Shown one piece after another: positions 3,059 through 45,331 of a stretch of DNA of 64,000 nt (position 1 is its first letter; every line of letters begins with the position of its first letter). The notes beneath the pieces were generated by a model. The model saw only the letters and a list, made by a program, of their open reading frames with translations, made no database searches and was not told the origin of the DNA. The translations under genes and the position numbers were made by a program. This DNA is from Minwuiaceae bacterium (GTDB lineage Bacteria; Pseudomonadota; Alphaproteobacteria; Minwuiales; Minwuiaceae), in the NCBI GenBank assembly GCA_028278525.1, contig JANQEE010000013.1, positions 186,001-250,000 of the forward strand, written 5' to 3'.

Positions 3059-3135
3059 CGAGCCACCCACTCCCCCTGCCCAACCACCCATGAGGATACC
3101 CTTGGGGTGGTTGGGCAGGGGGAGTGGGTGGCTCG
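3059..3135. repeat. long palindromic intergenic element, copy A
   Basis: Perfect 31-bp inverted arms (3059-3089 and 3105-3135) around a 15-base loop. The core is CTCCCCCTGCCCAACCACCC in the left arm and its exact complement in the right. It lies between the convergent lrgB and tadA genes, where it could act as a bidirectional transcription barrier. It is one of five family members in the window. Its loop is the exact reverse complement of copy C's loop, so the two copies are inserted in opposite orientations. Confidence 0.9.
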
Positions 3136-17499: not shown

Positions 17500-17584
17500 G
17501 CCCGGCCGGCCCGCTCCCCCGTCCCAACCACCCATACGAAGGTACCCTTGGGGTGGTTGGGACGGGGGAGCGGGCCGGCCGGGC
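17500..17584. repeat. long palindromic intergenic element, copy B
   Basis: Perfect 34-bp inverted arms (17500-17533 and 17551-17584) with a 17-base loop; the core reads CTCCCCCGTCCCAACCACCC. It lies between the divergent MaoC and cheY genes, so in this copy it cannot serve as a simple terminator. It is the main recognisable content of the 377-bp gene-free stretch 17396-17772. The rest of that stretch is the AT-richer leader of cheY, which presumably holds its promoter. Confidence 0.9.
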
Positions 17585-23542: not shown

Positions 23543-23625
23543 GCCTTGCCGGCCCGCTCCCCCTTCCCAACCACCCCAAGGGTATCCTCATGGGTGGTTG
23601 GGAAGGGGGAGCGGGCCGGCAAGGC
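23543..23625. repeat. long palindromic intergenic element, copy C
   Basis: Perfect 34-bp arms (23543-23576 and 23592-23625) and a 15-base loop. Its arm core has TT where copy B has GT and copy A has TG, with the matching change in the other arm. The loop is the reverse complement of copy A's, so this copy is inverted. It lies between two tandem plus-strand genes. The spurious first ATG of the next gene's long open frame lies inside it. Confidence 0.9.
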
Positions 23626-30825: not shown

Positions 30826-31170
30826 GTGAACCTCCGCCTCTTCCGGGCGGCTCGTACAATTTGAGTACAAAACCGATAAAATCGGCAAGCTGCTACAAAT
30901 GATAGGGAAATCGGCGCGTGTACAAATGAAAACTAATAATATATCCATCCGAATGTTCATTAACCTTAATTATAATCATAATATTTACCATATTTATCAA
31001 AGTAATTAATGAAATCAAGAAACTGCTAATTAATACTTCGGATATATTTACATAGGTATGCGCGAGATATGGTGTCGCTATTATTCGAGTAAACTCCTGT
31101 CCCGGACCGTCAACAGACCGGCGATCCGGACGGAATACTCTTGCCTGCGGCAATCCTTCGGTACGGCGGC
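30826..31170. promoter_or_regulatory. AT-rich divergent control region with TACAA repeats
   Basis: 345 bp without a gene, strikingly AT-rich (30930-31080 especially) inside a very GC-rich genome. Four TACAA boxes lie at 30854-30859, 30865-30870, 30893-30898 and 30920-30925, all on the same strand, spaced 11, 28 and 27 bp. An imperfect inverted pair, AATATATCCATCCGAA near 30938 and TTCGGATATATTT near 31037, brackets the most AT-rich part. This region must drive both the PAS-like gene (minus) and the autoinducer synthase (plus). High AT would also attract nucleoid proteins. No specific regulator can be named from sequence. Confidence 0.55.
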
Positions 31171-32397
31171 ATGCGCCGGCTGACGCAAGATTCCGAGCCC
31201 GGCGGCTCCGTGCCGACCTCCCTTATACGACGGGTGGAAGCCTACGAGGCCCGTGTCCGCGAAAGCGGCGGCCATCTGTACGGCCGCCCGCCCGGCCCGG
31301 ACAGCGTGCAGTTGGTCAGCAACGATTACCTGTCGCTCGCCACCCACCCGGAGATCATCGCCGCGCAGACCGAGAGCCTGGCCAAGCAGGGCAACGGCCT
31401 GCTGATGTCGTCGGTCTTCGTCGGCGAAGGCAGCGCTCAGCGCAAGTTCGAGCGCCGGCTGGCCGCCTTCATGGGCGCCGAGGACGGTCTGCTCGGCCAA
31501 TCCGGCTGGTGCACCAACAGCGGTCTTTTGCAGGCGATCGCCGACCCGACCGCCATGGTCTACCTGGATGTCCTGGCCCATATGTCGCTGTGGGAAGGCG
31601 CCAACAGCGCCGGCGCGCCGACCCGGCCGTTCCGCCATAACGACCCGGTCAGCCTTGAACGGTCGATCCGCAACTTCGGCCCCGGCATCGTCGTCGCCGA
31701 TGCGATCTACAGCACAAACGGCAGCATCGCGCCGCTGACCGAGATTGTCGAGATCGCCCACGGGTCCGGCTGCATCGTCGTCATCGACGAGTCCCACTCA
31801 CTCGGCACCCACGGGCCCCAGGGGCAGGGCCTGGTGGTCGAACTCGGCCTTAACGACAAGGTGCACTTCCGCACGGCCAGCCTGGCCAAGGCCTTCGCCG
31901 GCCGCGGCGGCATTGTCGTCGGCCCGGCCCGGCTGATCGAATTCACCCGCTACGAGTCACGACCGGCGATCTTCAGCTCGACGGTTCTGCCGCACGAAAT
32001 CGTCGGTTTCGACCTGACCCTGGATATCATCATGCGCGACGGCTGGCGGCGCGACCGCCTGGTCCGCAACGCCAACCATCTCCGCCACGGTCTGGCCGAG
32101 CTCGGCTACAATGTCAGCGAGAGCGCGTCGCAGATCATCTCGATCGAAGTCGGCCGCGAGCGCGACACGTTCCGGTTCCGGGATCTATTGGAAGAACGTG
32201 GCGTCTTCGGTTCCATATTCACCGCGCCGGCGACGCCCAAGTCCCGCTCCCTCGTCCGCTTCTCCGTTAATTGCGACGTTACCCGCGAAGAACTGGACCG
32301 CGTCATCGCTGCCTGCCGCGACGTCCGCGACCTGGTCGACTTCCGCGACTGGCCCTCCACCCGCCGCCTGCGCGACGCGAAGTCGGCCGTGGCTTAG
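31171..32397 (+). CDS. lqsA: alpha-hydroxyketone autoinducer synthase (LqsA/CqsA)
   Basis: 408-residue PLP-dependent alpha-oxoamine-synthase-family enzyme. The features that separate CqsA/LqsA from BioF, KBL and ALAS are all here: HMSLWEGA around His137, DAIYSTNGSIAPLTEIV, IDESHSLGTHGPQGQGLVVE (PLP Asp206, His209), TASLAKAFAGRGG (Schiff-base Lys240), PAIFSSTVLPHE, and a C-terminal SQIISIEVGRERDT. The family condenses an acyl-CoA with an amino acid or SAM to make CAI-1/LAI-1-type hydroxyketone signals in Vibrio and Legionella. The ATG at 31171 is preferred; TTG at 31141 and GTG at 31210 are in frame. Palindrome D begins the base after its stop. The sensor and regulator genes converge on it. 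Confidence 0.9.
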   Translation: MRRLTQDSEPGGSVPTSLIRRVEAYEARVRESGGHLYGRPPGPDSVQLVSNDYLSLATHPEIIAAQTESLAKQGNGLLMSSVFVGEGSAQRKFERRLAAFMGAEDGLLGQSGWCTNSGLLQAIADPTAMVYLDVLAHMSLWEGANSAGAPTRPFRHNDPVSLERSIRNFGPGIVVADAIYSTNGSIAPLTEIVEIAHGSGCIVVIDESHSLGTHGPQGQGLVVELGLNDKVHFRTASLAKAFAGRGGIVVGPARLIEFTRYESRPAIFSSTVLPHEIVGFDLTLDIIMRDGWRRDRLVRNANHLRHGLAELGYNVSESASQIISIEVGRERDTFRFRDLLEERGVFGSIFTAPATPKSRSLVRFSVNCDVTREELDRVIAACRDVRDLVDFRDWPSTRRLRDAKSAVA

Positions 32398-32465
32398 GGC
32401 CCACTCCCCCGTCCCAACCACCCATACAGGGTACCCTCGGGGTGGTTGGGACGGGGGAGTGGGCC
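32398..32465. repeat. long palindromic intergenic element, copy D
   Basis: Perfect 26-bp arms (32398-32423 and 32440-32465) and a 16-base loop. The right flank continues GGCATGG as in copy E, but the left arm is cut at the synthase stop codon, as if that end had been lost or fixed by coding constraint. It lies between the convergent lqsA and lqsR genes and could stop transcription from both directions. Confidence 0.9.
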
Positions 32466-32490
32466 GGCATGGCGACTCCACGAAAAGACC

Positions 32491-33510
32491 CTACCCATCC
32501 CGGCTGGCGTCCAGCTTCTCAAGGTAATGCTCGAACGCGTACACCCGCCCGCTTTCGACGCCGGGCGGATCGCTCAACAGCGCGTAGTGGTACGTCTCGG
32601 CCCCTTCGAACGTCTCCGCGGGATGCACGAAGTCCCGCCAGTTGCCGATATCCGGCGCGTAGAACCCGCCGCTCTGCCAGAAATGCGGCACCACCTTGCG
32701 GCTCTTCAGCGCCTCGACCAGGTCGGCCGGCGCGCCCTGGTCGCCGGCGATTTCCCATTGGCCCCGCAGATCGGTCTCGCCCAGCACCTTTAACAACGTC
32801 GCCCGGCCGTCGGCATCGAACATCAGGAAGCCGGCGGCGTCCGGCGCCAGATAATACTCCACCGCCCTGTGCCGCCCTCGGATCTCCGCGAACAGCTCGG
32901 CGAATTTCGGGTCCGTCATGAAACGCGGCGCCTGGCTGCCCAACGTGCGCAGGATGGCATCCGACGCCTGCTCGAAATGCCGTTCCTGCAGGCCCGCGAT
33001 GTTCTGGTTGACCATGGCCAGCGCATTCGGATCGCTCTTCACGATAAACCGGTCGATGATGCCCCGGTTGAACGCGTCTACCGCCGTTTTCTCGTCCGCC
33101 TTGCCGGTCAGCAGAATCTTGGCGATCGGCAGGCCGTCGATCATTTCGCAGACTTCCAGTCCGGTCAGGCCCGGCATCGCGTAGTCGATCACCAGCACCG
33201 AAACTTCCTCGAACCGGTCCGGCTGATAGACGGCTTCCGCGATCTTCGACAGTTCGACGGTCACCACCCGGTCGGTCAGCGCCGGCTCGATCCCGTCCGG
33301 AAAGTCGCGGTAGGCCGCCAGGAACGTCTCCTGCAGGCTCGATTGCCCGGCATGTTCGGTGATGAAATCCAGCGCCCGGTGCGGCGAATCCATGATCATC
33401 GCCGCCAGGTCGTCGTCCAGCCCGACCGACAGGTTTTGCAAGAACACCCGGTCGTCATCGACGAACAGCGTCGTGGTCGGATATCGGTATGCGAACAGCC
33501 TAGCCTGCAT
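32491..33510 (-). CDS. lqsR: LqsR-like response regulator
   Basis: 339 residues. The receiver begins with the acidic triplet LFVDDDRVF (residues 16-23), but the phospho-acceptor lies far downstream in VLVIDYAMPGLTGLEVCEMI (Asp109). This ~90-residue gap, versus ~45 in CheY-like receivers, is the pattern I recall for Legionella LqsR (Asp108). ILLTGKADEKTAVDAFNRGI and FIVKSDP follow. The C-terminal ~170 residues are not a recognised DNA-binding domain; they contain FAELFAEIRGRHRAVEYYL and YYLAPDAAGFLMFDADGRA. It is the last gene of the luxR-lqsS-lqsR operon, three bases after the kinase. Confidence 0.85.
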   Translation of the reverse strand: MQARLFAYRYPTTTLFVDDDRVFLQNLSVGLDDDLAAMIMDSPHRALDFITEHAGQSSLQETFLAAYRDFPDGIEPALTDRVVTVELSKIAEAVYQPDRFEEVSVLVIDYAMPGLTGLEVCEMIDGLPIAKILLTGKADEKTAVDAFNRGIIDRFIVKSDPNALAMVNQNIAGLQERHFEQASDAILRTLGSQAPRFMTDPKFAELFAEIRGRHRAVEYYLAPDAAGFLMFDADGRATLLKVLGETDLRGQWEIAGDQGAPADLVEALKSRKVVPHFWQSGGFYAPDIGNWRDFVHPAETFEGAETYHYALLSDPPGVESGRVYAFEHYLEKLDASRDG

Positions 33511-33513
33511 TGC

Positions 33514-34878
33514 TCATACTTTCGGAAAGCCGAGTTCGAACTCGGTGTAGCGCCCCAGCTCGGACCGGCAGGCGATATGGCCGCCGAACCCCTGCATGAC
33601 CAGTTTACAGAACGACAGGCCCATGCCGGTGCCCGTCCCCTGTTCCAGCGACGAATAGAACGGCTCGAAGATATGCGGCAGCATGTCCGGCGCGATGCCG
33701 GTCCCGGTATCGCGGAAGTACAGATAATTGGCGTCCGCCTTCCGTTCCAGCCGGATGCTTACTTCGCCGTCGCCGGCCTCGTGCACGAAGTAGAGCGCGT
33801 TCTTCATCAGGTTGAACAGCACGTGGATGACCAGCAGGTCGGAGCCCTGGAACTCGAAATCCTCGCCGCGCTGCCAGGTCACTTTGGCCCGTTCTTCCTC
33901 GGACTTGAACACATAGCGCGCCAGCGCCTGATCGACGCAGTCCGCAATGGAGACGCGCTTGAACTGCGATGGCTGAAGCTCGGTCTTGCCGGCATTGGTC
34001 AGCAGCATGTCGATGATGACGTTAGCGTAGTCGGTCTCGGAAGCGATCCGGTCCAGGGTCTTCGACAACCCGGTGAGCTGACCGCTGCGGATTCTCGCGA
34101 CATCCAGGCCCTCGTCCCGCGCCTTGCCGTAGGCGTCCAGCAGGTTCGGCAGATGCCGTTGCAGGCCGGCCGCGCCCGCCTTGATCGCCAGTAGCGGCGT
34201 CCGCATCTCATGCGCGATATTGCCGGCCACCGCCAGGATGGCACGCAGGCGTTCCCGCTTGACCAGTTCCGCCTTGTAGTTGACCAGGCTGCCGAAGATC
34301 ACCACGAACAGCAGCACCGGGATCGATTCCGGCTGGAAGTTGCGGGGGATCGCGATCCCCTCGGTCAGGTAGAAGCAGAGCCAGCCGAGCGCCGATCCCA
34401 CCACGAACATGATGATCAGGTTCAGCCAGTCGACCAGCAGCACCAGCAGGAACGCGGTGACCATCAGCGTCATGGTCGAGATGTGCGAACCGTCGTTCTT
34501 CAGCATCATGAAGCTGAAGAAGAACGGCAGCGAGTAGAGCGCGGTCGCGTACCAGAACACCGGCTCGAACCGACGCCAGCTTTGCGGCCAGTGATGGCGC
34601 AGCGCGCCGGCCATGAACAACCCGCCGCCGACCAGACGCAAGGTCAGGTTCTCGTAGGGCTGCGGGAACAGGTACGCCCACACCCAGTAGTACAGCGGGA
34701 ACGAAATCGCGCCGACGATCGAGATCATCGTCAGCGCCGATTCCAGGTAATCCAGGCCGCGCAGGAACAGATCGCGGGCCAGATGGTAGAACGCCCGCAG
34801 GCCGAACGGCGCGCTGACCGGCAGGGGCGGGTCCGCGCTCACCAGGCGCCGTTCCATCGATTCTCGGCTGCTCGACAT
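33514..34878 (-). CDS. lqsS: CqsS/LqsS-like membrane sensor histidine kinase
   Basis: 454 residues. About six transmembrane helices lie between residues 48 and 200, with WAYLFPQPYENLTLRLV between the first two and PFFFSFMMLKND in the third or fourth, as in Vibrio CqsS. The H-box is NIAHEMRTPLLAIKAGA (His223), then N-box LFNLMKNALYF, G1 RDTGTGIAPDM, G2 GTGTGMGLSF. No receiver is fused, as in LqsS but unlike hybrid CqsS. It should bind an alpha-hydroxyketone in its membrane domain and control phosphorylation of the adjacent LqsR-like protein. Compact spacing (4 and 3 bases) to its neighbours shows one operon. Confidence 0.9.
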   Translation of the reverse strand: MSSSRESMERRLVSADPPLPVSAPFGLRAFYHLARDLFLRGLDYLESALTMISIVGAISFPLYYWVWAYLFPQPYENLTLRLVGGGLFMAGALRHHWPQSWRRFEPVFWYATALYSLPFFFSFMMLKNDGSHISTMTLMVTAFLLVLLVDWLNLIIMFVVGSALGWLCFYLTEGIAIPRNFQPESIPVLLFVVIFGSLVNYKAELVKRERLRAILAVAGNIAHEMRTPLLAIKAGAAGLQRHLPNLLDAYGKARDEGLDVARIRSGQLTGLSKTLDRIASETDYANVIIDMLLTNAGKTELQPSQFKRVSIADCVDQALARYVFKSEEERAKVTWQRGEDFEFQGSDLLVIHVLFNLMKNALYFVHEAGDGEVSIRLERKADANYLYFRDTGTGIAPDMLPHIFEPFYSSLEQGTGTGMGLSFCKLVMQGFGGHIACRSELGRYTEFELGFPKV

Positions 34879-34882
34879 GGCG

Positions 34883-35611
34883 CTACGGCTCGATCAGGCC
34901 GAACGCCACGGCGCGGGCCACCGCATGTACCCGGTTGGCGACGCCGAGTTTCTTCATGACGTTCTTCAGGTGAAAGTTCACGGTCACCTCGGCTACGTCC
35001 AGGATCATCGCCGTCTCCCACGACGTCTTGCCCTGTGCCGCCCATTGCAGACATTCGCCCTCGCGCGCGGTCAGGCTTACCCCGGTCACCGGCGACGGCG
35101 GCCGGCTGCGCTGGACGGCATCGTGGAACCGAGCGGCGATGAACAGCAGCATCGGTTCCGTTTCGGCCAGCAGGCCGTCCAGGTCCCTCGACTGACCGTC
35201 TGCGGCCACGCAGAATGACGCGAACCGGCCGCCGGGTGCATGCACCGGGATCGCCGCGCCAACCGCCAGCCCGGCCTCCGCCATCAGCTTCAGCACCGCC
35301 GCCTCCCGGTCGCTCAACCCCGCCCCGTCGCCATTCGTGTCCCACCGCACCGGCAGCACCGACCTGATGCACCGGGTCAGAATCACGTCGTCCCGATACG
35401 CCCCTGTTTCCAGGTAGGTTTGTCGCCAGCGGTCCCCCAGGCTGGTGACGACCAGCGGCTCCGCCTCGCCGTCCAGCGGCAGGTCGACGCAAACGTAATG
35501 CAGCGCCGAAAAGCCCAGGTCCGCCAATACCGGGCGTACCGCGGCGCCGCACGCCTCCGGTGCCGTCGCCGCGTCGAGGCCGTTCAGAATCCGTTCGACC
35601 GATGCCCGCAT
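34883..35611 (-). CDS. LuxR-family regulator with AHL-type ligand domain
   Basis: 242 residues from the ATG giving MRASVERILNG, preceded by GGGG at the right distance; a longer frame to 35737 is less likely. The N-terminal autoinducer-binding domain carries the residues that contact the acyl-homoserine lactone in TraR at identical spacing: Trp62, Tyr66, Asp75, Trp90 and Gly118 (TraR W57, Y61, D70, W85, G113). TraR Pro71 is Val here. The C-terminal LuxR helix-turn-helix is LTAREGECLQWAAQGKTSWE with TVNFHLKNVMKKLGV. No luxI is in the window. It is the first gene of the operon with the hydroxyketone sensor and response regulator. Confidence 0.88.
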   Translation of the reverse strand: MRASVERILNGLDAATAPEACGAAVRPVLADLGFSALHYVCVDLPLDGEAEPLVVTSLGDRWRQTYLETGAYRDDVILTRCIRSVLPVRWDTNGDGAGLSDREAAVLKLMAEAGLAVGAAIPVHAPGGRFASFCVAADGQSRDLDGLLAETEPMLLFIAARFHDAVQRSRPPSPVTGVSLTAREGECLQWAAQGKTSWETAMILDVAEVTVNFHLKNVMKKLGVANRVHAVARAVAFGLIEP

Positions 35612-35621
35612 TTTCCCCGTT

Positions 35622-35639
35622 CGGAACACATATGTTCGG
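35622..35639. promoter_or_regulatory. lux-box-like inverted repeat before the LuxR gene
   Basis: CGGAACA-CATA-TGTTCGG: 7-bp arms with one mismatch, 11-28 bp before the LuxR-type gene's ATG. Size (18 bp) and symmetry resemble a lux box and would suit autoregulation. If translation starts upstream of 35611 instead, this would be coding sequence. Confidence 0.35.
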
Positions 35640-45245: not shown

Positions 45246-45331
45246 TGCCATGCCGGCCCGCTCCCCCGTCCCAACCACCCATAGGGTACTCTGTACGGGT
45301 GGTTGGGACGGGGGAGCGGGCCGGCATGGCA
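45246..45331. repeat. long palindromic intergenic element, copy E
   Basis: Perfect 35-bp arms (45246-45280 and 45297-45331), the longest in the window, with a 16-base loop. The loop reads best in the reverse orientation relative to copies A, B and D. It lies between amtB and glnK, two tandem plus-strand genes, just upstream of a T-tailed hairpin. Confidence 0.9.

Follow-up and report, generated by a model that had tools for sequence, protein, structure and literature searches.

Does the gene cluster at positions 30,826 to 35,639 of a 64,000-nucleotide stretch of Minwuiaceae bacterium DNA encode an alpha-hydroxyketone (AHK) quorum-sensing system, and how unusual would such a system be in an alphaproteobacterium? 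The stretch, hereafter the window, corresponds to contig C15:186001-250000 of a 71-contig, 5.95-Mb draft genome, in which a search for 16S gave no match. All four open frames reported by the original prediction, namely a synthase, a sensor kinase, a response regulator and a LuxR-type gene, were found at the reported positions and on the reported strands. The synthase gene lqsA (31171..32397, + strand) converges on luxR (34883..35611, - strand), lqsS (33514..34878, - strand) and lqsR (32491..33510, - strand), and an inverted repeat with 26-nt arms separates the two arms of the locus. The last three genes are co-directional, and the intergenic gaps are only 4 bp between luxR and lqsS and 3 bp between lqsS and lqsR; consequently, luxR-lqsS-lqsR is likely a single operon, and the predicted convergence of the synthase on such an operon is upheld by the coordinates. 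Based on the conserved catalytic, phospho-acceptor and sensor residues, the operon spacing, and the clustering of lqsA, lqsS and lqsR at one locus, a linkage kept in 64 of the 80 nearest synthase loci, the locus is very probably a Legionella-type (Lqs) AHK quorum-sensing module. We infer the chemistry, ligand and phosphotransfer of this module from Vibrio and Legionella.

The open frame of lqsA starts with TTG at 31141, and the ATG at 31171 is the likelier start. The product, a pyridoxal phosphate (PLP)-dependent enzyme, scored 527.7 bits over residues 40-407 against NF005526, the NCBI curated equivalog model of AHK autoinducer synthases, which is approximately 100 bits above the cut-off of 428 bits. 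Its best match in the PDB was V. cholerae CqsA (2wk7, E 7e-103) with 347 bits, compared to at most 164 bits for KBL and BioF, and the PLP-binding lysine is present in the motif TASLAK (K250 counted from the TTG) and aligns with that of 2wk7. A different explanation would be that the protein is a BioF/KBL/SPT-type (SPT, serine palmitoyltransferase) alpha-oxoamine synthase of primary metabolism, which lies beside a two-component system by chance. The fold family is indeed the same, and PF00155 and the bioF and KBL models match at 170-244 bits; however, the bioF, KBL, aminolevulinate (ALA) synthase and serine palmitoyltransferase models, all within this range, fall far under their curated cut-offs of at least 338 bits, and the linkage of the synthase to lqsS and lqsR is kept in most relatives. 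Moreover, in the synthase tree the KBL/BioF-like proteins of the same genome are separated with a support of 98, and Vibrio CqsA falls within the ingroup together with the window protein. The curated scores and the tree therefore rule out a BioF/KBL identity, and a chance neighbor from primary metabolism is extremely improbable. The phylogeny, proposed earlier as a check, groups the synthase with CqsA/LqsA, apart from BioF/KBL, and its assignment as a CqsA/LqsA-type AHK autoinducer synthase is well supported by the sequence comparisons.

The product of lqsS is a membrane sensor histidine kinase with the sensor motif FPLYYWVWAYLFPQPYENLTLRL and His223, and it is without a fused receiver domain. 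The HATPase domain was matched at 1.6e-21, and the HisKA domain at 5.5e-06 (26.8 bits, against a cut-off of 26.9). The N-terminal LqsS sensor profile gave 209 bits for the window kinase and 170-181 bits for the CqsS proteins of Vibrio campbellii and Vibrio sp., both of which are encoded beside cqsA and probably contributed to building the profile. In a single-sequence tblastn search with the kinase, Vibrio matches of 2e-61 to 2e-67 were obtained over 90% of its length, and alignment shows a signature common to LqsS and Vibrio CqsS, FPxYYxVWxxxFPQPYExLxLRL, in which FPQPYE is conserved. Of the six transmembrane helices expected for this kinase type, a simple hydropathy scan detected four segments in LqsS and only three even in Vibrio CqsS, which implies that the scan under-calls the helices of CqsS/LqsS proteins. 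Both the proposed CqsS/LqsS type of the kinase and the relatedness of its sensor, which had been singled out for checking, are thus borne out by the sensor profile and the alignment.

The residues of this sensor bear on the type of signal. The positions of W104 and S107 in CqsS are occupied by Ser134 and Thr137 in the window LqsS, and the C170/F175 position is occupied by Val199, not by a bulky Phe. In L. pneumophila LqsS, a Ser likewise stands at the W104-equivalent position and has been linked to hydroxyl-type ligands (review PMC3376566); the bulky Phe at the C170/F175 position limits V. harveyi CqsS to C8 tails (PMC3285556). The Ser and Val at these two positions therefore suggest a hydroxyl-type signal that is not restricted to a C8 tail.

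The product of lqsR matches the structure of L. pneumophila LqsR (PDB 6sy9) over residues 9-336 (E 4.7e-70), and a Response_reg domain was found in it by profile search. Asp109 aligns with the phospho-acceptor Asp of 6sy9, and the long N-terminal spacing is kept; this full-length match confirms the predicted LqsR-like regulator with long spacing to Asp109. Ralstonia PhcX is, similarly, an LqsR-family response regulator, though its linkage is to phcBSRQ and it is uncoupled from lqsA/lqsS (PMC10653808).

In the module proposed here, LqsA would most likely condense an acyl-CoA with an amino-acid-derived co-substrate to yield a signal similar to cholera autoinducer 1 (CAI-1) or Legionella autoinducer 1 (LAI-1). 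This signal would build up, enter the membrane and bind the N-terminal transmembrane sensor of LqsS. The kinase would then shift the balance of its kinase and phosphatase activities at His223 and hand phosphate to Asp109 of LqsR, and LqsR would finally act via its C-terminal output domain. LuxR, the product of the first gene of the operon, would add an input of the acyl-homoserine lactone (AHL) type, or of another ligand, or feed back on the operon, and would tie AHK sensing to a LuxI/LuxR pair on contig C3 of the same genome; this role of LuxR in the module is a guess. Several points weigh against this reading. The closest synthases share just 48-59% identity with the window LqsA, so that the substrate and the signal may differ. 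To our knowledge, the output of LqsR is biochemically undefined even in Legionella. Finally, AHL binding by the window LuxR is uncertain, because a Val replaces a proline of its ligand pocket.

The original prediction had regarded the architecture of the locus as unusual and hydroxyketone signaling as possibly not described for this lineage, and neither view held. The gene order was surveyed in the 80 nearest synthase loci of one-per-species genomes, a sample that is biased to near relatives and is mostly betaproteobacterial. The order lqsA (+) followed by lqsR (-) and lqsS (-) occurs in 64 of these loci and is the commonest there, and in a further five, both genes are present on the opposite side. 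Reported lqs clusters already span Alpha-, Beta- and Gammaproteobacteria (PMC10653808). Betaproteobacterial examples are those of Burkholderia xenovorans (PMC3376566) and the jqsA-jqsS-jqsR cluster of Janthinobacterium, in which the AHK function was shown genetically by complementation of a jqsA mutant with cqsA or lqsA (PMC3566124).

When the locus is compared to the known systems, the betaproteobacterial clusters (Paraburkholderia, Sulfuritalea/Rhodocyclales, Paludibacterium and Janthinobacterium) have the same order, with lqsA convergent on lqsR and lqsS, and their proteins are roughly 50-59% (LqsA), 33-45% (LqsR) and 42-50% (LqsS) identical to those of the window. The Lqs system of Legionella pneumophila also has a separate synthase, a kinase without a receiver and an LqsR-family regulator that matches over its full length. 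On the other hand, the Legionella order is LqsA-LqsR-HdeD-LqsS, whereas in the window there is no hdeD and no gene between lqsS and lqsR. As hdeD is a Legionella peculiarity (PMC3376566), it is not a defining feature of Lqs systems. Also unlike Legionella, the window synthase is convergent on lqsS-lqsR, a LuxR is part of the operon, and a second AHK synthase is encoded elsewhere in the genome. Vibrio CqsA/CqsS shares the synthase family and the sensor-domain family with the window locus; however, the Vibrio kinase is a hybrid to which the receiver is fused, whereas the window has a separate LqsR.

The frequency of such loci was assessed in 385 alphaproteobacterial genomes, one per species. A synthase over the NF005526 cut-off is present in 8 of them and an LqsR homologue in 11, and only the genome of the window has both (1/385), which implies that the complete triad is rare in Alphaproteobacteria, though not new there. 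That the module belongs to the known Lqs type, in a lineage where this type is rare, is well supported. The sequence comparisons give good support to the predicted alphaproteobacterial set of AHK-type synthase, sensor and regulator. The locus provides an intact Lqs triad that branches deeply, in a class in which the other sampled genomes with a synthase over the cut-off had no LqsR and those with LqsR had no such synthase. The genomes with an LqsR homologue and no synthase over the cut-off (G021, G028, G063, G092, G159, G184, G220, G241, G256 and G279) are mostly small, at 0.8-2.6 Mb. In the alphaproteobacterium Tistrella mobilis, a synthase is located on plasmid pTM3.

Another explanation would be that the locus is decayed or receive-only, a non-functional recent gain from Betaproteobacteria. 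A search of eight genomes of the same family gave no close synthase in any of them; the ancestor of the family thus probably lacked the locus, and the nearest named relatives are mostly betaproteobacterial. However, all four frames are intact, and the catalytic and phosphorylation residues are kept. The window LqsA has a long branch (0.65 changes per site), is placed outside the betaproteobacterial clade, and lies close to a clade formed by further synthases from Alphaproteobacteria, with moderate support; LqsS falls outside the main betaproteobacterial clade in the kinase tree, and LqsR stands beside a Massilia group with middling support in the regulator tree. A gain from Betaproteobacteria is hinted at by the best matches, but in the synthase and kinase trees the window proteins do not fall inside the main betaproteobacterial clade. 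The long branches and this placement of the synthase lend no support to a recent origin or to one in Betaproteobacteria. A decayed or receive-only locus is very unlikely.

The gene at the head of the receptor operon sets the locus apart from its relatives. The luxR gene most likely starts at the ATG at 35611, inside the end given by the original prediction, and its frame is open to 35737. The product contains the Autoind_bind (PF03472, 3e-23) and GerE (PF00196, 2e-22) domains and matches LasR at 1.6e-25; on these matches, it is a LasR/TraR-type regulator. No luxI is found next to the window luxR. The only luxI of the genome lies on contig C3:123203-123736 (L022), beside another luxR, whose product is 34% identical to the window LuxR, and a gene that was called cytochrome P450-like by reading the sequence. 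The pocket was compared at the positions that we take to correspond to TraR W57, Y61, D70, P71, W85 and G113. In an alignment with the LuxI-linked C3 protein, the window LuxR keeps five of these six residues, and the Pro after the conserved Asp is replaced by Val. In addition, an inverted repeat GAACA-N4-TGTTC is located at 35624..35637, just upstream of the luxR ATG; this is the one match in the window, with 0.04 expected by chance, and, speculatively, it is a candidate LuxR-type operator.

A luxR gene co-directional with and upstream of lqsS occurs in none of the 80 nearest synthase loci. In nine Rhodocyclales-type loci (L024, L029, L031, L037, L038, L040, L049, L050 and L063), a LuxR-type gene lies beside lqsS but is divergent from it, whereas in the window it is co-directional and first in the operon, in an alphaproteobacterial host; no luxI was found in the available flanks of these nine loci. 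LuxR-type genes are thus seen with lqs clusters in two lineages, which implies that the pairing is either old or has evolved repeatedly. These observations bear on the idea that the AHK module has been rewired around LuxR, such that AHL-bound LuxR controls lqsS-lqsR as a gate and the two signals are not parallel inputs. This idea is compatible with the Lqs module and refines it. The position of luxR at the head of the operon with a 4-bp gap, the mostly conserved pocket in a genome with one luxI, the repeat just upstream of luxR and the nine Rhodocyclales-type loci all argue for it. On the other side, no lux-box or operator shared by the upstream regions of the window luxR and the C3 luxR-luxI pair was seen by eye and by simple pattern search, the pocket proline is replaced, and the operon may simply be constitutively transcribed. 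LuxR gating is accordingly a tentative proposal, which we regard as possible but somewhat doubtful. With a LuxR-type gene included in an operon for AHK reception, AHL/AHK cross-talk becomes directly testable.

The second synthase of the genome that exceeds the cut-off is encoded on contig C37:153695-154867 (L009:8570-9895, + strand) and scored 501.6 bits. It is divergent from a membrane histidine kinase (L009:6900-8330, - strand) with about six hydrophobic segments, and approximately 240 bp lie between the two open frames. A relation of this kinase sensor to LqsS/CqsS was not detectable by hhalign (probability 2%, with a query profile of only four sequences), and homology to the LqsS sensor is thus unsupported. 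Three further genomes (L011, L142 and L143) also have a kinase of this type divergent from a synthase. The C37-type sensor profile was matched at E < 1e-100 in 5 of the 385 genomes, from three alphaproteobacterial families and all synthase-positive (hypergeometric 8e-10, a value that ignores relatedness, as three of the five are of one genus and four supplied the profile). In synthase-negative genomes, there were also matches, but weaker ones (1e-20 to 1e-36). No description of such a synthase-linked sensor kinase was found in the open-access literature searched. Because of its association with a synthase, outside the window, the C37 sensor, which is not of the CqsS type, is a candidate that may represent a second AHK receptor family. 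A genome with two AHK circuits of unrelated receptor families, one a LuxR-gated LqsS/LqsR and the other the C37 synthase/kinase with a new class of hydroxyketone receptor, is a conceivable arrangement that we put forward with reserve.

The inverted repeat between the convergent genes (32398..32465) has a very stable fold (-71 kcal/mol, z -8) and is without a T-run; it may act as a putative transcription terminator between the two arms. The palindromic element noted in the original prediction is thus present between the arms, but it is not specific to the locus. The same repeat occurs in at least 40 places in the genome, which rules it out as a locus-specific regulatory or quorum-sensing element. 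Five copies are located in the window (3066-3128, 17510-17574, 23553-23615, 32398-32465 and 45257-45320), where this repeat of about 68 bp forms a near-perfect stem similar to repetitive extragenic palindromes (REP) or miniature inverted-repeat transposable elements (MITE), and no Rfam family matched in the window.

Upstream of lqsA, on the + strand, an AT-rich region (30850..31100) with a minimum 100-bp GC of 0.20 in a neighborhood of 65% GC is the probable promoter region of the gene. The AHK synthases of three other alphaproteobacterial loci (L011, L142 and L143) also have AT-rich leaders, with minimum GC values of 0.28, 0.23 and 0.12, respectively, and such leaders in GC-richer genomes are possible targets of a nucleoid-type silencer. 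In a further alphaproteobacterium (G287), a frame of 1207 amino acids (L141:8891-12514, + strand) encodes an MMPL/RND-type transporter with an AHK synthase fused to its C-terminus, and it adjoins a second synthase whose frame opens with a transposase-like stretch. A fusion of synthase and exporter would give a clue to the route by which the signal exits the cell.

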